From Rhodopseudomonas faecalis (lineage in GTDB: Bacteria; Pseudomonadota; Alphaproteobacteria; Rhizobiales; Xanthobacteraceae), in contig NZ_QJTI01000013.1 in NCBI RefSeq assembly GCF_003217325.1, positions 1-64,000 on the forward strand: 64,000 bases of DNA. The letters are read 5' to 3'. Made by a program: the position numbers and the translations under genes. Below, one piece after another: positions 38,346 to 53,905 of this stretch. The notes beneath the pieces were generated by a model, which did not search any database, was not told the DNA's origin, and saw nothing but the letters and a program-made list of their open reading frames with translations. The stretch's first letter is position 1. The number at the start of each line of letters is the position of its first letter.

Positions 38346-39897
38346 GTTACGTAGTCGCCCGTGAACAATTCGGGAGCCGCTGATTTTTCTGACTGATCGA
38401 TCGTGGGCAAGTATTCGCTTTTGCAGGAAGCCGCGGGACGACCGCGGTTTTCTTGCGTTTTGGGATTCTCGATTGGGCCGGTTTGTGATTCCTTTGGTGG
38501 CGGGTTCGTCTGTCGGGAGGGATAGGTGAGCAAGCCGCGCGACGATCGTCAGGTGGAGTTGTTTCGGCCGGCGCTGGAGCAGATCATCGATCTCACCCAT
38601 CCGCTGGTGCGGCTGGCCGCGGAGATCGACTGGGCGTTTGTGGAGAGGCGCTTCGGCGCCGGCTATCGCACGGGTCCTGGGCAGCCGCCGTTGCCGACGC
38701 GACTGATCGCCGGGCTGTTGATCCTCAAGCACATGCACGATCTGTCCGACGAGGTCTTGTGCGCGCGCTGGGTGGAGAACCCGTATTTCCAGTTCTTCTG
38801 CGGCGAGGTCGTGTTCCGGCACGATCTGCCGTTCGACCGCTCGTCGCTGAGCCGCTGGCGCAAGCGGCTGGGCGATGAGCAGCTCGCGGCGCTGCTGCAG
38901 GAGAGCCTTTCGGTGGCGCATCGCTCGGGCGCGCTGCAGACCAAGGATTTGGAACGGGTGGTGGTCGACACCACGGTGCAGGAGAAGGCGGTCACTCATC
39001 CGACCGACGCCCGGCTCAACCACCGCGCGATCGAGAAGCTGGTCGATCTGGCCAAGCGCGAGGGCGTGGCGTTGCGCCAGAGCTATCTGCGCGTCGCCAA
39101 ACGCGCCGCGATCATGGTCGGGCGCTACACCCACGCCCACCAGTTCAAGCGCGCCCGCCGCGAACTCAAATTCCTGCGCACCCGGCTCGGGCGCATCATC
39201 CGCGACATCCGCCGCAAGATCGAGGGCAACGCCGCGCGCGAGGATCGCTTCGCGCCGCTGCTCGATCTCGCCGTCCGGGTGAAGCAACAGGATCACCGCC
39301 AGCGCGGCCAGAAGGTCTATTCGCTGCACGCCCCGGAGGTCGAATGCATCGGCAAGGGCAAGGCGCGCTCACCCTACGAGTTCGGCTGCAAGGTCTCGGT
39401 CGCGACCCCGGTCACCGCGCCGAAGGGCGGCCAGTTCGTGCTGCATGCCAAGGCGCTGCACGGCAATCCGTTCGACGGCCACACGCTCGGGCCGATCATC
39501 GCAGACCTGCAAAATCTGACCGGTGTCGAGGTCCAGCGCATCCATGTCGACAAGGGCTATCGCGGCCACAGCTATCCCGACCGCTTCAAGGTCTGGATCT
39601 CCGGCCGGGTCCGCAGCGTCACCAGGACCATCCGCCGCGAGATGAAGCGCCGCACCGCCGTCGAACCGGTGATCGGTCATCTCAAGGCCGAGCACCGCAT
39701 GGGCCGCAACCACCTCAAGGGCCGCCACGGCGACCGCATCAACGCCGTCCTCGCCGCCGCAGGCTTCAACTTCCACCTGCTGCTGCGCTGGTTCGAGCGG
39801 CTCTTGCGTGCCCTGCTGTTGATGCTGTCGCTCCGCCCCGAAGCCGACCGCCACCCCTAAATCAATCCGATCCAGCAAACTTCACGGACGACTACGT
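38346..39897 (+). mobile_element. IS5-family insertion sequence
   Basis: One transposase gene lies between imperfect terminal inverted repeats: ACGTAGTCGCCCGTGAA at the left (from 38349) and its near complement TTCACGGACGACTACGT at the right (to 39897). A CAAT on each side (38342-38345 and 39898-39901) may be the target duplication. Length is about 1.55 kb. It lies among decayed chemoreceptor and regulator genes. Confidence 0.78.
38526..39860 (+). CDS. IS5-family transposase
   Basis: 444 residues of DDE transposase. Likely catalytic positions are the Asp in VVVDTTVQ, the Asp in HVDKGYRGH and the Glu in AVEPVIGHLK. The N-terminal DLTHPLVRLAAEIDW segment and the FDRSSLSRWRKRLG helix are typical of this group. 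The frame is intact, so the element may still move. The long frame on the opposite strand is a by-product of high GC. Confidence 0.93.
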   Translation: MSKPRDDRQVELFRPALEQIIDLTHPLVRLAAEIDWAFVERRFGAGYRTGPGQPPLPTRLIAGLLILKHMHDLSDEVLCARWVENPYFQFFCGEVVFRHDLPFDRSSLSRWRKRLGDEQLAALLQESLSVAHRSGALQTKDLERVVVDTTVQEKAVTHPTDARLNHRAIEKLVDLAKREGVALRQSYLRVAKRAAIMVGRYTHAHQFKRARRELKFLRTRLGRIIRDIRRKIEGNAAREDRFAPLLDLAVRVKQQDHRQRGQKVYSLHAPEVECIGKGKARSPYEFGCKVSVATPVTAPKGGQFVLHAKALHGNPFDGHTLGPIIADLQNLTGVEVQRIHVDKGYRGHSYPDRFKVWISGRVRSVTRTIRREMKRRTAVEPVIGHLKAEHRMGRNHLKGRHGDRINAVLAAAGFNFHLLLRWFERLLRALLLMLSLRPEADRHP

Positions 39898-43927: not shown

Positions 43928-44854
43928 TCATCCAGTCACGGTTAGAGCCTCGGCGGTTTGTACGCCGTGGGGCGTGGGTTGAGCAACGGGCGATCGGCGG
44001 AGCTGGTCGGTGTTGCGGAGCCGATCGCCCGTTGCAGTGAAGGTGGCGGCATAAGCCGTCGGTGTGAGATAGCCGAGCGCCGAGTGTGGGCGTTCGTTGT
44101 TATAGTCGGTGACCCAGGCGGCGATCTTGGCGCGGGCGTCGTCGAGGTCGAAGAACAGCGTCTCGTTGAGCAGTTCGTCGCGCATCCGGCCGTTGAAACT
44201 CTCGACGAAGCCGTTCTGCATCGGTTTGCCGGGCGCGATGAAATGCCAGTCGGCTTTGCTGTCCTGACACCAGGCGAGCATGGCGTTGCAGGTGAACTCG
44301 GTGCCGTGATCGGACACGATCATGCCCGGCTTGCCGTGCCGTTCGACGATCGCGGTCAGTTCGCGGGCCACCCGTCGGCCGGAGATCGAGGTGTCCGGGA
44401 TGGCGCCGAGGCAGGTCTTCGTCACGTCGTCGACGATGTTGAGGACGCGGAAGCGCCGGCCGTTGGCAAACTGGTCGTGGACGAAATCGATCGACCAGCG
44501 TGCGTTCGGCTGGGCCTCGACCAAGATCGGCGCCCGCGTGCCCACGGCCTTGCGCCGGGCCCGCCGTTTGCGCACGCAAAGCCCTTCCTCGCGATACAGC
44601 CGGTGGATGCGATTGAGGCCCGATCGTTCGCCCTCCCGGCGCAGCAGCACGAACAGCCGGCGGTAGCCGAACCGCCGCCGCTCGTTGGCCAAATCGCGCA
44701 AGCGGGCCCGCAGCTCGGTGTCGGGTGGCCGACGGGATCGATAGCGGACCATCTTGCGGTCCGCGCCGACGATCCGGCAGGCCCGCCGCTCCGACAGGTC
44801 CATGACGGACTGAAGGTGCGCGACGCCCTCGCGCTTGGCGACGGGCCCTACCAT
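43928..44854 (-). CDS. IS3-family transposase OrfB
   Basis: 308 residues with the HTH_21-like region ([20 protein letters not shown]) and the integrase core: Asp in WSIDFVHDQ, Asp in IVSDHGTEF, Glu in [13 protein letters not shown]. All three catalytic residues are present. It probably is made as an OrfAB fusion through a -1 frameshift at the seven A (T7 on the plus strand, 44854-44860) at the end of orfA. Confidence 0.93.
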
Positions 44855-45114
44855 TTTTTTGACAGAAGCTCGCGCAGTGCGGCCGCATCCAGCATCTGCT
44901 CGGCCAGCAGCTTCTTCAGCTTGGCGTTCTCCTCCTCCAGAGCCTTCAGCCGCTTCGCTTCGGAGACGTCCATCCCGCCGAATTTGGCCTTCCAGTTATA
45001 AAACGTCGCCTCCGAGATCCCGTGCTTGCGCGCCAGATCGGCGGTCTTGGCGCCGGCCTCGTGCTCCTTCAGCACCGCAATGATCTGCTCTTCCGTAAAC
45101 CTTGCTCGCTTCAT
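44848..45114 (-). CDS. IS3-family transposase OrfA
   Basis: 88 residues from the Met at 45114 ([20 protein letters not shown]), with helix-turn-helix ([19 protein letters not shown]) and a leucine-zipper-like tail ([18 protein letters not shown]). It ends SKKW-stop over an A7 run that is a classical A-AAA-AAA slippery site leading into the orfB frame. Confidence 0.92.
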
Positions 45115-45177
45115 CAGTCCGTCCTCGTCAGGGCCGGACTCTAACTCCAACTGGGGGAAAAACTCAGGGGCAGGTCA

Positions 45178-47802: not shown

Positions 47803-48632
47803 TCCTCGTCCCACCGATCGCGGTTCACGTCGACGAAGCCGGCCGGGTAGCCCCGAGCCATGACGCCGAAGTTGGGCTCGCCTTCACTATGAACGGCGAG
47901 GATATGCTCAGGACCGAGCGGCTGATGTGTGTAGAGGTCGAACGCATGTTTGCCCGGCCGGCAGCCGAGCAACCGGCCATAAGTGGCAACCACTGCCTCA
48001 GCCGCCGAATAACCATGACGGGAATGGGCGAGCGGCATGGCAATCTCCAGGACACGCGGCCGACCGATCTTCTTCAGCATGTCCTGAAGTGCCGCGTCTC
48101 GCTGCCAGAAATAGGCTGACTCGCCGCCCCAGCTCTCGAGGAGCAATTCAACGCCGCTGTCTTCGACGTCGACGGGATGCGAGACCATCCAGAACTTGTT
48201 GGAGCGGGAGTCGAGCTGATCGCTTTGGTACGGGCTGTCGGCGAACAAGCGATCTGCGACCTTTTGGCTGAATGCGCCAGCAGCGACTTGCGCCGCGAAA
48301 CGTGATCGGATGGTGTCGAAGCTGGATGGATAAATGCCGCCCTGTCGAAGAGCGCCGACTTCCGCGTCGGTCAGGCGGGTATAGTGCCAAGCGCGGATCG
48401 TGCGGCCTTCCATCAGCCGCATGATATGCTCCTTCACCCACATGAACTCGCCCGCATAAGGATTCTCGGGATAGGGCATGGTGCGATCGGAGGCCTCACG
48501 CTCCAGCCATTGGCGGCGCGAGGTGAGCATGTAATCGCGGATGACATCTGTGTGGGCGTCGAGGTCGCCGCGCAACGCGCTGTCGAAGGTTTCGACGTCC
48601 CAGACGTCAATGATGGCGACGCTCTCGGTCAT
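47799..48632 (-). CDS. ADP-ribosyltransferase-like protein of unknown target
   Basis: 277 residues. Around 80-104 it reads RAWHYTRLTDAEVGALRQGG, the 'H-Y-T...L...G' start common to PARP/DarT-like and other small ART folds. Further on, LLLESWGGESAYFW could supply the catalytic-Glu strand. The start overlaps the abiEii stop by four bases and its stop overlaps the HEPN-type gene start by four, so three or four genes are translated as a unit. The ART call is a pattern judgement, not proven. It could instead be a structural relative without activity. Confidence 0.5.
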   Translation of the reverse strand: MTESVAIIDVWDVETFDSALRGDLDAHTDVIRDYMLTSRRQWLEREASDRTMPYPENPYAGEFMWVKEHIMRLMEGRTIRAWHYTRLTDAEVGALRQGGIYPSSFDTIRSRFAAQVAAGAFSQKVADRLFADSPYQSDQLDSRSNKFWMVSHPVDVEDSGVELLLESWGGESAYFWQRDAALQDMLKKIGRPRVLEIAMPLAHSRHGYSAAEAVVATYGRLLGCRPGKHAFDLYTHQPLGPEHILAVHSEGEPNFGVMARGYPAGFVDVNRDRWDEE

Positions 48633-49507
48633 GCCTCACTCCCGTTTCTTGCTACGATCCGCGCGCATGACGGGCCGACCAACCCCCAAACCTTTTCGAT
48701 GATCGATTCCAGCGAAACAGCGTCGAGTTCGAGCGATGCGGCGTAAGCGCGCCATTGCCGCTGCTTCCCTTCGTCGCCAAACATCTCGGCTGAGAGGCCT
48801 GGGGGGCATTCCTTCGGAATCGGCGTCCGCCGGCGCTCGAACGTCGCGCGGATGGCCGCATCCAGATCGTCAGCGGAAATGTCGATCGCGCGCGGGATCG
48901 CCCACAGGTCGTAATAATCCTTCATGCGTCCGTTGAGGACGCCAAGCGCCACCATGGCCTGGAATTTCTCGGCAATCACCGTGGCGGGCGGATAGGAACG
49001 AACCTGCGGAGCGGGAAAATCCAGCAGGGTCGGATAGTCGAGCCGCTGCGTCGCATCGGCCATAGCGTCTCCGAAGCCGATGTCGATTGTGACGGGGATG
49101 CGCGTTCTTTCGAGATAGGCAGCGGTCTTGATGCGAATGCCGCCATATTCCATCTCCTCTCGAATGACGGTCGCAGCGAGCGCATCGATGTCGAAGGCGA
49201 GTCCATCGTCGCTCGCGATCGCCATGATCTCTCCGAAGTCGGCAATCAGGCCGTCAGGATCAGCGTCCCCGTGTCCGAGAAAGTCCGCATCCCGCGTCAC
49301 CCGATTGTCGTCGGCCACCCAGACCGTGACCAGCATGCCGCCTTTCAGGACGAAGCGGTCCCGATGCGCTGAGATCGACAGGCGGTAGAGCAGCCGTTCA
49401 AGCGCGAACCGCACCAGCAGGATGTCGAAAGCGCGACCTTCTTTCCGGGCGATATTGAGCAGCCGGTCCTTGACCGACTTCGCCATATTCGTCGGTGCTT
49501 TAGCCAT
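48629..49507 (-). CDS. abiEii: AbiEii nucleotidyltransferase toxin (second AbiE)
   Basis: 292 residues. The nucleotidyltransferase core shows FVLKGGMLVTVW and RVTRDADFLGHG (GG...DxD) and VTIDIGFGDA as the third acidic strand. The MAKSVKDRLLNIARKEG start and VIAEKFQAMVALG... MKDYYDLW motifs are typical for this AbiEii subgroup. It overlaps abiEi by eight bases. It is a different subfamily from the copy at 23214, so the two pairs are not recent duplicates. Confidence 0.9.
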   Translation of the reverse strand: MAKAPTNMAKSVKDRLLNIARKEGRAFDILLVRFALERLLYRLSISAHRDRFVLKGGMLVTVWVADDNRVTRDADFLGHGDADPDGLIADFGEIMAIASDDGLAFDIDALAATVIREEMEYGGIRIKTAAYLERTRIPVTIDIGFGDAMADATQRLDYPTLLDFPAPQVRSYPPATVIAEKFQAMVALGVLNGRMKDYYDLWAIPRAIDISADDLDAAIRATFERRRTPIPKECPPGLSAEMFGDEGKQRQWRAYAASLELDAVSLESIIEKVWGLVGPSCARIVARNGSEA

Positions 49508-50120
49508 TGGAAGTGAGCGCCTCGATATAGGGTTGCATCACCTTCCAGGCGCCGCCGGCCTTCGCGGCCTGGGCGATAGCGCTCGGAGTTGCCTTGTGTT
49601 GCTGGAGGGCGGCGCGCAGACCTTCTATAGCGACTGATCGATCGACCAGTTTGGGGTTTCGGAACAGGTCGGCAAGAGTCTTCGGGATCGAATAGACCGG
49701 GACGTCGATGCCAGCGATCGCATGATGCTCGATGCCCTGGCGCAGATAGGATTCCGTGAAACGGACCATGCGCAGCGGCGGATAAGACTGCACGGGCGCC
49801 CAATCGCTCGTCCCGATCGCCATCCAAACCCGCCGTGGCATCTGGTCGGTCAGTCCATGGAAGGCGAGAGCCGATACCAGAGCGACCACGCCTTTGGGGA
49901 CGCGCATGGCGGCTTCGGCGAGGATCTGGTTCTCTTCGACTTCCGCGCCACGCTTCTGATAAACCCCGCGCGAGATACGCTCGACTTCACCGCTCTCGAC
50001 GGCGCGCGCGATCGTTTGCGCGCTGATGCCAGCCTCACGCAGTTCATGCGCGTGCATCATACTGCGCGCTTCGAGCAGGCTTCTGAGCTTCGCCTTTTGC
50101 GAATCTTGCGCCGAGGGCAT
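49500..50120 (-). CDS. abiEi: AbiEi antitoxin/repressor (second AbiE)
   Basis: 206 residues with an N-terminal winged helix (MMHAHELREAGISAQTIARA, SGEVERISRGVYQK) and the AbiEi C-terminal domain (VYSIPKTLADLFRNPKLVDR). It should repress its own operon and neutralise AbiEii. A 17-bp-arm inverted repeat covers its start codon, a convincing autoregulatory site. It heads the minus-strand run abiEi-abiEii-ART-like-HEPN-like. Confidence 0.92.
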   Translation of the reverse strand: MPSAQDSQKAKLRSLLEARSMMHAHELREAGISAQTIARAVESGEVERISRGVYQKRGAEVEENQILAEAAMRVPKGVVALVSALAFHGLTDQMPRRVWMAIGTSDWAPVQSYPPLRMVRFTESYLRQGIEHHAIAGIDVPVYSIPKTLADLFRNPKLVDRSVAIEGLRAALQQHKATPSAIAQAAKAGGAWKVMQPYIEALTSNG

Positions 50121-50170
50121 GTTACAAATCCTCTAATCGGCCGCGATCTTATCAGAGGTTTTGTCACATG
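50118..50170 (-). promoter_or_regulatory. Long inverted-repeat operator over the abiEi start (second AbiE)
   Basis: CATGTTACAAATCCTCT (50118-50134) and AGAGGTTTTGTCACATG (50154-50170) are inverted copies with 15 of 17 positions matching and a 19-bp spacer. The left arm includes the abiEi start codon. This is the expected layout for AbiEi autorepression. Confidence 0.75.
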
Positions 50171-50327
50171 TCATCCCCAATGCGATTTTCTGACGTATTT
50201 CAATCAGGTCGATGTGAACGAGCCTGGAGGGGAAAGCCTTCCCCTACGGCCGAGCCGAGGTCTCGGCCGACCCCTTCTACGGGGTGCCCCCGCAACGCCC
50301 CGAGAAGAGTGAGAGTGGGGATCGGAG

Positions 50328-50378
50328 ATCCATGACGGGTTGAGTGTCGAGAGAGAGGCTCCCGGCGCCCGTCATGGA
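50328..50378 (+). promoter_or_regulatory. Structured RNA leader A1 before the DUF932 gene
   Basis: TCCATGACGGG (50329-50339) pairs perfectly with CCCGTCATGGA (50368-50378) around a 28-nt loop containing TCGAGAGAGAGG and ending CGGCG. The Shine-Dalgarno GGAG (50376-50379) is part of the stem base. A leader of the same size and loop, with compensatory stem changes, stands before the parB-type gene (51696-51745). No terminator follows, so control of translation is the likely role. Confidence 0.6.
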
Positions 50379-50388
50379 GTTTGGTCTC

Positions 50389-51582
50389 ATGAACATGCAG
50401 ATTCTCGACGCCCGCCGCGACATGACCGGTGGCTACAAGGTGGATGTCAGCCGCGGCGAGCGGATCGGCCGCGTTTCTTCGGAATGGTTCTCGCGCCCCG
50501 ATGACGAGCGTTATCTTTCGCTGTCGGAGCTGGCGGATTCGGTTCGCAGGCGATCCGAGCGCAGCCGGACGCGCGTCGTCGAAACCGCGCTCATCCATGT
50601 CGAGGCGAGCCGCACCGATCCAGAGCGGTTGTCTCTCATCCTGCCCGGCTCGGACACGCCCGTCGCGCCGACCCATTGGAGCTTCGGCCAGCTCGCTGCC
50701 CAAGTCGGCGCTCCCGCCGCCTATCTGCGCCAGCTCCCCGCCGCACTTGCCGGCATCAACCTGCAATACGGTCTGTCCTCGCATCGGGCCGAGCAGATCA
50801 AGACCCTCGAAACCGACAACGGCCGGATCGAGCTGCGCGCCGTCACCGGCCCCGACTATGGCCGGATCTACGACCACGAGCTGGTCGAGGCGGTCCAGCG
50901 CATCGCCGGCAACGGCACGGGTGACACGCGCTGGAAGGTGCCCGGCGTGCTCGATTGGTCGACCGGCGTCTACAACCCCCGCGTTGACGTCACGAAGGAC
51001 ACGACGACGCTCTATGCGTCCGATCGCGACGTGTTTCTCTTCCTCGTCGACGATCTCAATCCCATCGAGGCCGGTCGGCTCCCCGACGGCTCGCCCGACC
51101 TCTATTTCCGCGGCTTCTACTGCTGGAATTCCGAGGTCGGCGCCAAGACGCTCGGCATGGCGAGCTTCTATCTCCGCGCGGTCTGCCAGAATCGGAATTT
51201 GTGGGGCGTGGAGGATTTCGAGGAAATCACCATCCGCCACAGCAAGTATGCGGCCTCGCGCTTCGCCCACGAAGCTGCGCCGGCGCTGCTGAACTTCGCG
51301 AACTCCTCACCAATGCCCTTCATCAACGGCATCAGGGCGGCCCGCGAACGGATCGTCGCGAAATCGGACGAGGACCGCACCGAATTCCTGCGCAAGCGTG
51401 GATTCTCGAAGGCCGAGACCGGCAAGATCATCGAGACCGTCCTGGCCGAGGAAGGCCGCCCGCCGGAATCGATCTTCGATTTCGTCGCGGGCATCACCGC
51501 CGTCGCCCGCGAAAAGACCAACCAGGACGCGCGGCTCGAACTGGAGGGCAAGGCGAAGAAGCTGCTCGACCGCGCCGCCTGA
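50389..51582 (+). CDS. DUF932-domain protein of ICE/plasmid backbone
   Basis: About 397 residues; the ATG at 50389 lies nine bases behind GGAG, while an in-frame ATG at 50374 falls inside the hairpin stem. DUF932 proteins, related to phage-plasmid LGT_TIGR03299 proteins, are abundant on mobile elements but have no settled function. Visible family segments are THWSFGQLAAQVGAPAAYLR and RAVTGPDYGRIYDHELVEAV. The block that follows (ParB, helicase, Toprim, DUF2493, DUF736) is a well-known alphaproteobacterial mobile-element set. Confidence 0.88.
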   Translation: MNMQILDARRDMTGGYKVDVSRGERIGRVSSEWFSRPDDERYLSLSELADSVRRRSERSRTRVVETALIHVEASRTDPERLSLILPGSDTPVAPTHWSFGQLAAQVGAPAAYLRQLPAALAGINLQYGLSSHRAEQIKTLETDNGRIELRAVTGPDYGRIYDHELVEAVQRIAGNGTGDTRWKVPGVLDWSTGVYNPRVDVTKDTTTLYASDRDVFLFLVDDLNPIEAGRLPDGSPDLYFRGFYCWNSEVGAKTLGMASFYLRAVCQNRNLWGVEDFEEITIRHSKYAASRFAHEAAPALLNFANSSPMPFINGIRAARERIVAKSDEDRTEFLRKRGFSKAETGKIIETVLAEEGRPPESIFDFVAGITAVAREKTNQDARLELEGKAKKLLDRAA

Positions 51583-51695
51583 TCGCCGTGAAGCCGGAAG
51601 CACGACTTTCCGTGTCTCCGGCTTTGCGCCTCCGTGCCTTTCCGTTTTCCCGATCCGTGGCGCTGCCCTCCAAGAGTGAGAGGGCGGCGCTTCGC

Positions 51696-51745
51696 TTCGT
51701 GACGAGTTTGGGTTCGAGGGAGAGGCTCTCGGCGCTCGTCGCGGA
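51696..51745 (+). promoter_or_regulatory. Structured RNA leader A2 before the parB-type gene
   Basis: TTCGTGACGAG (51696-51706) pairs along its full 11 bp with CTCGTCGCGGA (51735-51745), including two G-U pairs, around a 28-nt loop with TCGAGGGAGAGG and a CGGCG end. Compared with leader A1, stem pairs 4 and 10 change on both sides (A-T to G-C, G-C to A-T). The GGAG ribosome site overlaps the 3' base of the stem. Confidence 0.6.
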
Positions 51746-51754
51746 GTAACGAAC

Positions 51755-53905
51755 ATGGCAACCGCCGTTCAGAAGATCACGCTGTCGTCGTCGCGCGACA
51801 TTCCCTTCAACAAGCTGGTGCTGAGCCAGTCCAACGTCCGGCGCGTGAAGGCCGGCGTCTCGATTGAGGAGCTGGCCGAGTCGATCGCCCGTCGCGGCCT
51901 GATCCAGAGCCTCCATGTGCGCCCGGTCGTCGATGGCGAGGGCCAGGAAACCGGTATGTTCGAGGTGCCCGCTGGTGGCCGCCGCTACCGCGCGCTGGAA
52001 ATGCTCGCCAGGCAGAAGCGCCTCAACAAGACCACTCCCGTCCCCTGCGTCGTCTCGGCCGCCAACGCCGCCATCCTGATCGACGAAGTTTCGCTGGCCG
52101 AGAACATCGAGCGCGCGCCGCTCCATCCGCTCGACCAGTATCGCGCCTTCCAGACCATGCGCGACAAGGGCATGACCGAGGAAGACATCGCCGCCGCGTT
52201 CTTCGTCGACGTCAATATCGTGAAGCAGCGGCTGCGCCTCGCGTCGGTCTCGCCGGCACTGCTCGACATCTATGCCGAGGACGGCATGGAGCTGAAGCAC
52301 CTCATGGCCTTCACCGTGTCGCACGACCACGCCCGTCAGGAGCAGGTCTGGGAGCAAATCCGCAATAGCTGGCAGAAGGAGCCGTACCACATCCGCCGCA
52401 TGCTGACCGAGACGACGGTTCGCGCTTCCGACAAGCGCGCCGTCTTCGTCGGCATCGACGCCTACGAGGCGGCCGGCGGCATCGTGATGCGAGACCTCTT
52501 CGAATCCGACGACGGCGGCTGGCTTCAGGATGTCGGGCTTTTGGATCGCCTCGTCTCCGAGAAGCTCACGACCATCGCCGACGAGATCGCGACCCACGGC
52601 TGGAAATGGGTCGAGGCCGCCGTCAGCATTCCCTACGGCGTCACCCATGGGCTGCGCGAGATCAAGGGCGTTCCTCTCGACGTCACCGCGGAGGAGCAGG
52701 CCACGCGCGACGCGCTGCAGGAGGAACTCGACCGCCTGACCGCCGAATACGAGGACGCCGATGAGCTTCCGGACGAAGTGGATGCCCGCCTGGGCGAGAT
52801 CGAGGCGGCGATCGACACGCTCGACAACCGCCCGGTCCGTTACGATCCGGCGGAAATCGCCATCGCGGGCGTGTTCGTCAGCATCGATGCCGATGGCTCG
52901 CTCTCCGTCGATCGCGGATACGTCCGCCCCGAGGACGAGCGGCCGGTCGAGGTCGCCGATGACGAGGCACCGGAGGACGATGTCGATCCTGAAACCGGCG
53001 AAATCCGCACGCCTGCCGTCCAGCGCACCGTCATCACCATCGACGGCCAGCCGGTGCAAACCGAAGAGGAGGACGAGGACGACGGCCTGAAGCCGTTGCC
53101 CGAGCGGCTGGTCATCGAACTGACCGCCCATCGCACGCTCGCCCTCCGCGACGCGGTTGCAACCCACCCGCAGGTCGCCCTGACCATGCTGCTGCACAAG
53201 CTGGTCAGCGACACGTTTCGCCACACCGCGCCGACCGGCTGCCTCGAAGCCTGGGTCAAGCACCTCTATCTCTCCGGCCAATCCGAAGAGATGAAGGCCA
53301 GTCCTTCGGCGCAATCGGAGAATGCGCGTCACGAAAGCTGGGGCGACCACGTTCCCGCCGATGACGACGCCCTCTGGGATTGGCTGGAACAGCTCGATGA
53401 CGGCACCCGCCTCGATCTGCTGGCGCATTGCGTGAGCTTCGGGATCAACGCTCTGTTCGAGCGCCCGAATCCGCACGCCGCGTCCGGCATCAGCCGTCAC
53501 GGGCTCGACGTGCGCTTGGCCCAGGCGGATCGGCTCGCCGTTGCCACCGGGCTCGATATGGTCGCCGCAGGCTGGAAGCCGACCGTCGGCAACTACCTCG
53601 GACGGGTGACGAAGGGCCGCATTCTCGAAGCCGTGCGCGAGGGCGCCGGCGAACGCGCCGCGCAGCTCATCGGCCACCTGAAAAAGGGCGACATGGCCAA
53701 GGAAGCCGAGCGCCTGCTCGCCGACACCGGCTGGCTGCCGGAACCGCTACGGATGTCGGACGACACCGCGGCCATCGACGATCAGCCAGTCATGTCGGAG
53801 GGCGGCGACGAAGACCTCCCGGCATTCCTGGCCGAAGACGGAGAGGACGACGAGGCGAACGAGCCCGAAGACGACGAGCACGTCGCAATGATCGCAGCCG
53901 AATAG
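51755..53905 (+). CDS. ParB/RepB/Spo0J-type nuclease-domain protein, large ICE variant
   Basis: 716 residues. The N-terminal ParB domain (about 15-110) shows LVLSQSNVRR, the GGRRYRALE box and ENIERAPLHPLDQYRAF. A helix-turn-helix follows (MTEEDIAAAFFVDVNIVKQRL). The large C-terminal half is acidic and rich in Glu/Asp stretches (VEVADDEAPEDDVDPETGEI; tail DEDLPAFLAEDGEDDEANEP). ParB-type proteins bind DNA sites and use CTP in partitioning. Proteins of this length on ICEs are often stand-alone, without ParA, and may act in replication or regulation instead. No parA gene is adjacent. Confidence 0.9.
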   Translation: MATAVQKITLSSSRDIPFNKLVLSQSNVRRVKAGVSIEELAESIARRGLIQSLHVRPVVDGEGQETGMFEVPAGGRRYRALEMLARQKRLNKTTPVPCVVSAANAAILIDEVSLAENIERAPLHPLDQYRAFQTMRDKGMTEEDIAAAFFVDVNIVKQRLRLASVSPALLDIYAEDGMELKHLMAFTVSHDHARQEQVWEQIRNSWQKEPYHIRRMLTETTVRASDKRAVFVGIDAYEAAGGIVMRDLFESDDGGWLQDVGLLDRLVSEKLTTIADEIATHGWKWVEAAVSIPYGVTHGLREIKGVPLDVTAEEQATRDALQEELDRLTAEYEDADELPDEVDARLGEIEAAIDTLDNRPVRYDPAEIAIAGVFVSIDADGSLSVDRGYVRPEDERPVEVADDEAPEDDVDPETGEIRTPAVQRTVITIDGQPVQTEEEDEDDGLKPLPERLVIELTAHRTLALRDAVATHPQVALTMLLHKLVSDTFRHTAPTGCLEAWVKHLYLSGQSEEMKASPSAQSENARHESWGDHVPADDDALWDWLEQLDDGTRLDLLAHCVSFGINALFERPNPHAASGISRHGLDVRLAQADRLAVATGLDMVAAGWKPTVGNYLGRVTKGRILEAVREGAGERAAQLIGHLKKGDMAKEAERLLADTGWLPEPLRMSDDTAAIDDQPVMSEGGDEDLPAFLAEDGEDDEANEPEDDEHVAMIAAE

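Follow-up and report, generated by a model that had tools for sequence, protein, structure and literature searches.

Ribosomal-protein leaders and other translational operators use a hairpin that touches the Shine-Dalgarno sequence, and they serve in the autogenous control of chromosomal operons. The leader described here differs from them in that one RNA class stands before several gene families of mobile elements. In the available text of PMC8708921, PMC11541004 and PMC5512222, sets of genes related to these are treated as establishment, leading-region or polyvalent-protein genes. EGeRS1 is described in the available text of PMC8708921 as a repeated structured sequence of 400-600 bp that lies immediately upstream of the ribosome sites of establishment operons, including ardC, in conjugative plasmids of the pLS20 family from Bacillus. 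A consensus fold has been predicted for EGeRS1, that text reports no covariation test, and its authors state that the mechanism is unknown. The leader, in contrast, is 74 nt long, covaries, is locked to the Shine-Dalgarno sequence and is alphaproteobacterial; this distinction from EGeRS1 is drawn from the published description. Like the leader, Frpo/ssi elements are hairpins that recur in front of anti-defence genes and early genes of a related kind. According to the available text of PMC11541004, however, Frpo acts in the transferred strand and as DNA, whereas selection on the leader is on the mRNA-sense strand.

The radC motif (RF01754) is tabled in the available part of PMC2864571. Like the leader it is proteobacterial and probably a cis-regulatory RNA, and radC is also found downstream of a few leaders; however, its model has 149 positions and the leader has 74 nt. 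At E 0.01 and under strict filters, the motif (cut-off 40 bits) was not found in the genome of the window, and it was absent from the matches up to E 5 in window positions 50100-51900 and up to E 10 in six loci. Two radC sequences that were inspected had no features in common with the leader. Rfam 15 gave 0 matches over the gathering thresholds in the 64-kb window. The first-pass annotation knew of no description of the element, and none was found in the literature or in motif-discovery papers, a search that stopped short of the Weinberg 2017 motif collection; the papers listed for a piece of the loop sequence were all unrelated. The leader is best classed as a probable cis-regulatory RNA whose regulon is unusual.

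The window, that is the whole 64-kb stretch of DNA that was analysed, contains two of the five copies that model R1 finds in its genome, and the other three are on another contig (C8). The two had been described in the first pass as leaders with 11-bp stems and 28 nt between the arms, and this is correct. Stem 1 pairs 50329-50339 with 50368-50378 and stem 2 pairs 51696-51706 with 51735-51745. The stems differ, as had been claimed, at four of the eleven positions with pairing kept at all four; two of the changes are two-sided (A-T to G-C and G-C to A-T) and two are one-sided (C-G to T-G and T-A to T-G). The 3' arm of the stem was also rightly said to meet GGAG, which ends 9 nt before the ATG at 50389 in leader 1 and 8 nt before the ATG at 51755 in leader 2. 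The 28-nt interval has the length given for it but is more than a simple loop: in the homologues it comprises an internal loop and a second hairpin, which covaries and is capped by the pentaloop AGAGG. When compared with dinucleotide shuffles, the short leader 1 had a z of -4.83 and its folding was equalled by 0 of 200 shuffles; for the short leader 2 the values were -2.61 and 2 of 200. The inner hairpin of leader 1 has one A-C mismatch, and the minimum-energy fold of this leader pairs the 28-nt interval otherwise than the family consensus does. The conserved element begins upstream of the stems that were first recognised, at AGAGTGAGAG (50306-50315 and 51673-51682), and 14 nt separate the end of this motif from the 10-bp core of the outer stem. 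In an alignment of 18 copies, most columns of AGAGTGAGAG either do not vary or show a conservation of 90% or more. Two copies alone are thin evidence, but the family of 255 copies lifts the case above chance. The features of the window are collected in Table 1.

Table 1. Positions in the window of the two leaders, their parts, block U and the two genes that follow the leaders.
Feature	Position	Strand	Remarks
Block U, three GC-rich hairpins	50229..50301	+	directly upstream of leader 1
Leader copy 1	50306..50379	+	before DUF932-type gene; model R1 89.3 bits, E 8.1e-21
AGAGTGAGAG, conserved unpaired purine motif, copy 1	50306..50315	+	
Outer stem 5' arm, copy 1	50330..50339	+	partner 50368-50377
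Inner stem 5' arm, copy 1	50347..50353	+	partner 50359-50365, one A-C mismatch; family consensus
AGAGG pentaloop, copy 1	50354-50358	+	
Outer stem 3' arm into Shine-Dalgarno, copy 1	50368..50379	+	GGAG at 50376-50379
DUF932-type gene, 397 aa	50389..51582	+	after leader 1; Pfam DUF932 E 0.0036, below cut-off
Leader copy 2	51673..51746	+	before ParB-like gene; model R1 82.7 bits, E 5.6e-19
Outer stem 5' arm, copy 2	51697..51706	+	partner 51735-51744
Inner stem 5' arm, copy 2	51714..51720	+	partner 51726-51732
AGAGG pentaloop, copy 2	51721-51725	+	
GGAG Shine-Dalgarno, copy 2	51743..51746	+	first GG inside stem
ParB-like gene, 716 aa	51755..53905	+	after leader 2; Pfam ParB_N E 4.4e-7

A covariance-model search, one of the checks proposed in the first pass, places both leaders in a large and apparently undescribed family of structured mRNA leaders. 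By sequence similarity, related leaders were found in 221 plasmid records for copy 1 and in 103 for copy 2, both counts being taken at E up to 10 and the 221 including weak matches. Judging from their names, we take the ten commonest genera and the 60 records listed for copy 1 to be alphaproteobacterial. The search with copy 2 also counts 8 Streptomyces records, which are probably due to chance. Model R1 was built from 18 copies aligned by sequence alone; nine plasmid regions supplied 16 of them and the window the other two. At E 0.001 it matched 27 of 385 genomes belonging to the class of the window, which is taken to be Alphaproteobacteria. Strains in which the element was confirmed include Ketogulonicigenium vulgare Y25, Rhizobium etli IE4803 and Bradyrhizobium sp. 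BTAi1. Model R2, built from 150 matches, has matches in 34 of 398 genomes drawn from the phylum (E 0.01), all 34 of them in the window's class. A pattern scan of genome contigs gave at least 117 stretches; among those listed, 113 are alphaproteobacterial by title and four have unspecific titles. Applied to fetched loci, R1 gave 275 matches. Two that were cut off by the end of a locus were left out, and the 273 that were kept gave 255 copies with 237 distinct element sequences at 154 loci; among the 255, one is probably a truncated second fetch of a counted copy and two more end before the hairpin does. A locus was picked because it resembled the window, because it matched a conserved pattern that fixes TGACGGGT and GAGAGGC, or because R1 found it, and the conservation at TGACGGGT and GAGAGGC is therefore inflated.

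A phage origin of the leader was rejected, as 50,697 phage records gave three matches, each of at most 34% of the query and with E 2 or worse. The first pattern scan of viral contigs gave a single match, which was without the stem. Three IMG/VR contigs (L168, L169 and L170) carry the leader before ParB-like, ArdC, DUF932 or small genes without assigned function, which suggests that these are misclassified conjugative elements.

The consensus element begins at its 5' end with the unpaired AGAGNGAGAG, which is followed by a spacer of about 14 nt, the outer 5' arm CCGTGACGGG and an internal loop of approximately TTGARGG. An inner stem of about 7 pairs comes next with the AGAGG pentaloop, found in 210 of the 240 copies scored, and the inner 3' arm is followed by the outer 3' arm CCCGTCRYGG, which runs into AG so that GGAG is half inside the outer stem. 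A leader RNA is expected to hold a fixed place at the ribosome site of its gene, and an ATG is found 7-9 nt after GGAG in 242 of the 255 copies. The 5' arm of the outer stem is nearly invariant, and the support for this stem thus comes largely from wobble and not from double change. In three variants (L132:5103-5177, L164:5640-5714 and L167:6640-6718) the 5' half is kept and the 3' half is different; there is no readable gene at the usual distance, and these variants are decayed or differently folded.

The first pass had also claimed that the RNA structure was selected. This claim is strongly supported by covariation, by the excess of G-U over A-C, by the fixed distance to the ATG and by the unrelated genes that lie downstream. 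A conserved secondary structure with compensatory change, as expected of an RNA leader, was found. In the sequence-only alignment of 18 copies 97.7% of cells are paired, and 7 of 17 pairs are changed on both sides. The covariation score was reached by 0 of 500 shuffles and the count of two-sided pairs by 1 of 500, and pairing fell to 30-53% when the partner was slid by 1-3 columns. A tree-aware null, a custom test and not R-scape, was applied to 167 non-redundant copies aligned without structure. The top four column pairs at least 3 columns apart are all pairs of the inner stem. Over all column pairs the expected false counts for these four are 0.2, 0.5, 1.2 and 5.3, none of which is below 0.05, and the highest null score (141) is above the best observed score (118). 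The four pairs pass 0.05 only if the counts are rescaled to the 17 pairs of the predicted structure, which gives about 0.001-0.04.

The strand on which the structure was selected can be read from the wobble pairs. G-U and A-C cells number 358 and 16 in the outer stem (248 of 255 copies scored, 7 unscored) and 233 and 35 in the inner stem (240 of 255 scored, 15 unscored), which is 591 against 51 for both stems, counts that are inflated by the relatedness of the copies and that in the outer stem come mainly from three pairs. For the 167 non-redundant copies aligned without structure the counts are 232:15 in the outer stem and 167:32 in the inner stem. Because G-U far outnumbers A-C, the selection was on the mRNA-sense strand; no G-U bias would be expected of a double-stranded site, and the opposite bias would be expected of a hairpin in the template strand. 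A further regularity was observed at the two neighbouring pairs beside the Shine-Dalgarno sequence. Among the 221 copies with G-T in the 5' arm near this sequence, the 3' arm has GC in 130 and AT in 56, and thus exactly one wobble is present in 186 of the 221; the rest have two wobbles (14), none (9) or another combination (12). Within the ParB copies alone, GC is found in 55 of 86 and AT in 19 of 86. These counts, too, are inflated by the relatedness of the copies. It looks as if the strength of the stem were tuned.

The GG of the Shine-Dalgarno sequence is predicted to be occluded. The mean unpaired probabilities of its two bases are 0.03 and 0.04 in 235 copies versus 0.18 and 0.21 at 160 control sites, and the mean for GG is below 0.1 in 91% of copies versus 57% of controls, the controls being GGAG-ATG sites that are unverified as true starts and are often paired too. 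It had been proposed in the first pass that an RNA element controls translation by means of protein, RNA or temperature. The selected RNA stands. Translational control is what we infer from the overlap with the Shine-Dalgarno sequence, and its direction, its timing in conjugation and the factor are put forward in the same conditional sense. A temperature trigger is unlikely because the median predicted energy of the element is about -35 kcal/mol.

On the strength of these sequence comparisons, the leader is probably a cis-acting RNA operator that is common to establishment genes of a family of alphaproteobacterial conjugative elements. In the mRNA, the 10-bp outer stem and the inner hairpin with AGAGG would form just before the start codon. 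The stem would pair the first two bases of GGAG, so that the default state would be one of low translation. AGAGNGAGAG, the internal loop and AGAGG may be the recognition surface for a trans-acting factor, or they may be a ribosome standby site, and the factor or the standby site would set when the stem opens. One RNA class would in this way co-regulate ArdC, ParB-like, DUF932, RadC and other genes at translation, which would be off or low in the resident cell and on upon entry into a new cell. A count of antisense partners nearby included both strands, so that counts for the complement equal those for the forward sequence. No NusG/RfaH-like antiterminator is named in two annotated neighbourhoods, the gene tables of which are incomplete.

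The timing of anti-defence and establishment genes in conjugative elements is an open question outside a few models. A compact RNA that marks such genes on many alphaproteobacterial plasmids and ICEs makes this question testable with small reporters. A more tentative suggestion, which we regard as possible but rather doubtful, is a translational switch for zygotic induction. The hairpin class would keep early genes off by way of an RNA binder that is encoded by the element and is perhaps the ParB-like protein, and in a new cell without the binder the anti-restriction and partition-type proteins would be made at once. If true, the switch would parallel, at the level of RNA, the known strategies for establishment genes that rely on repressors or on single-stranded promoters.

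Genes of at least five families, with no evident relation to one another, lie downstream of the leader. The gene that follows it is ParB-like in 102 of the 255 copies, ArdC in 69, DUF932 in 36, a 185-aa family in 24 and RadC in 3; the remaining copies are followed by a small uncharacterised family (3), by other genes (10) or by a gene that is not readable (8). One representative each of ArdC (ArdcN, MPTase-PolyVal) and RadC was confirmed by Pfam. An Aminobacter gene and a Sphingobium gene under the leader-1 match are annotated as DUF932. The 716-aa ParB-like protein of the window has HTH_ParB just under the cut-off and ParB/Noc relatives in the PDB. The proteins of the 185-aa family are mostly of 182-185 aa. 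Of the 24 leaders that precede this family, one is at L161:1253-1326 and the others are at 23 further loci; for one representative protein, Pfam gave nothing over its cut-off and PHROG gave no match. The motif also serves as an annotation handle, as likely establishment genes, including the 185-aa family, are found by the leader alone. The first pass had spoken of ICE backbone genes, which is right but too narrow, since establishment-type genes on plasmids as well as on ICEs carry the leader.

The ParB-like gene is the one most closely linked to the leader. In the same 385 genomes, 27 of 28 ParB-like places at 53% identity or more have a leader within about 40 nt upstream, in a comparison that was made by eye, with strict filters that may miss weak leaders. 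Not counted are three partial matches of more than 53%, of which one, a truncated gene, has a leader and the other two have none. Of the more distant ParB-like places (37-47% identity, E 1e-34 or better) 1 of 16 has a leader. A ParB-like place at 53% or more is present in 22 of the 27 leader-bearing genomes, and the five without a full one include one with a truncated gene and one with a 43% relative. Among the ORF families present in every one of the 24 neighbourhoods, the ParB-like family alone looks like a true gene, and no dedicated regulator gene besides it is common to all 24. This linkage is biased, since leader and ParB hits were used to select the neighbourhoods. The occurrence in all 24 and the leader at 27 of 28 close places make the ParB-like product the best-linked candidate for the trans-acting factor.

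The specific form of the operator reading in which the ParB-like product binds the leader as an autogenous repressor has a rather small chance of being right. The presence of the gene in all 24 neighbourhoods and the leader at 27 of the 28 close genes would agree with it, but the choice of neighbourhoods biases this linkage, five of the 27 leader-bearing genomes are without a full ParB-like place at 53% or more, and no RNA-binding domain was found in domain searches. Known ParB proteins, moreover, bind DNA. It is about equally conceivable, and likewise improbable, that there is no regulator and that the leader is a ribosome standby site or context insulator, in which AGAGNGAGAG and the Shine-Dalgarno-like loop GAGG hold the 30S subunit and translation is constant. 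The conserved unpaired purines, the AGAGG loop (210 of 240 scored copies) and the lack of conserved sequence upstream of 92 non-redundant ParB copies are consistent with such a role. However, an insulator need not pair Shine-Dalgarno bases, and the sequence conservation of the 5' arm would be left unexplained.

Readings in which the hairpin acts as DNA, or responds to a metabolite or to temperature, are less favoured by the data. A single-stranded DNA promoter of the Frpo/ssi type, in which a hairpin of the transferred strand starts early leading-region transcription in conjugation, is unlikely. The gene set (ArdC, ParB-like, RadC) and the orientation toward the relaxase region would fit a leading region, and Frpo-type promoters stand before such leading-region genes according to the available text of PMC11541004. 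If the transferred strand, itself an inferred assignment, is taken as the template, however, hundreds of G-U cells become C-A mismatches, and the counts of 358:16 and 233:35 favour the mRNA-sense strand. Because GGAG abuts the stem, a hairpin promoter would have no space beyond it in which transcription could start; by eye, neither a TATAAT-like sequence in the stems nor -35/-10 elements in the consensus were seen. A role of this type would be better suited to block U, which is Watson-Crick paired with few wobbles. A metabolite riboswitch or an RNA thermometer would account for the conserved internal and terminal loops and for the Shine-Dalgarno overlap, but we give little credence to either: the targets are united by mobile-element biology and not by metabolism, a thermometer would be expected to have a much less stable stem, and there is no Rfam match. 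The outer stem is also an inverted repeat, as an operator for a DNA-binding protein would be. A double-stranded site of that kind gives no reason for G-U over A-C (591 vs 51) and the spacer itself covaries as a hairpin, so it is very improbable. The cis-acting RNA operator is the reading that we prefer.

The element of the window looks like an ICE of the RlxS/Trb type: downstream in the contig, and on the same strand, come ParA, TraF, RlxS, TraG, TrbB, TrbE and TrbL. In Aminobacter pAA02 the same gene block precedes a Ti-type tra region. Once near-repeats had been removed, a loose match found block U at 61 of 99 ArdC/DUF932 leaders. Of the 64 U blocks in the loci, 61 have the leader after them. 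Its middle hairpin covaries. Over the three hairpins there are 30 G-U, 13 A-C and 119 other unpaired cells, with the middle hairpin fitted to its best register. Because wobbles are few, block U may act as DNA, unlike the leader, and it is possibly a DNA-level signal. Conservation drops at the upstream edge of block U, and farther upstream the elements mostly have sequences unrelated to each other. The idea of a shared promoter immediately before the leader was rejected, as there is no conserved sequence before the 92 non-redundant ParB copies.

The window holds some further genes of note around this region. An AbiEi/AbiEii type IV toxin-antitoxin pair (48629-50120, minus strand) is divergent and adjoins block U; in other elements its place is taken by different cargo, some of it defence-like and some metabolic. 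In the upstream region there are an IS5-family transposase gene and an apparent two-ORF transposase of the IS3 type, recognised by eye (38526-39860 and 43928-45150). Farther along the same contig, at 64912-65686, two overlapping ORFs in different frames (L179:912-1217 and L179:1111-1683) match Pfam Trans_reg_dom and RovC_DNA-bd. In ICEMlSym-type elements, the frameshifted excision activator FseA has this arrangement.
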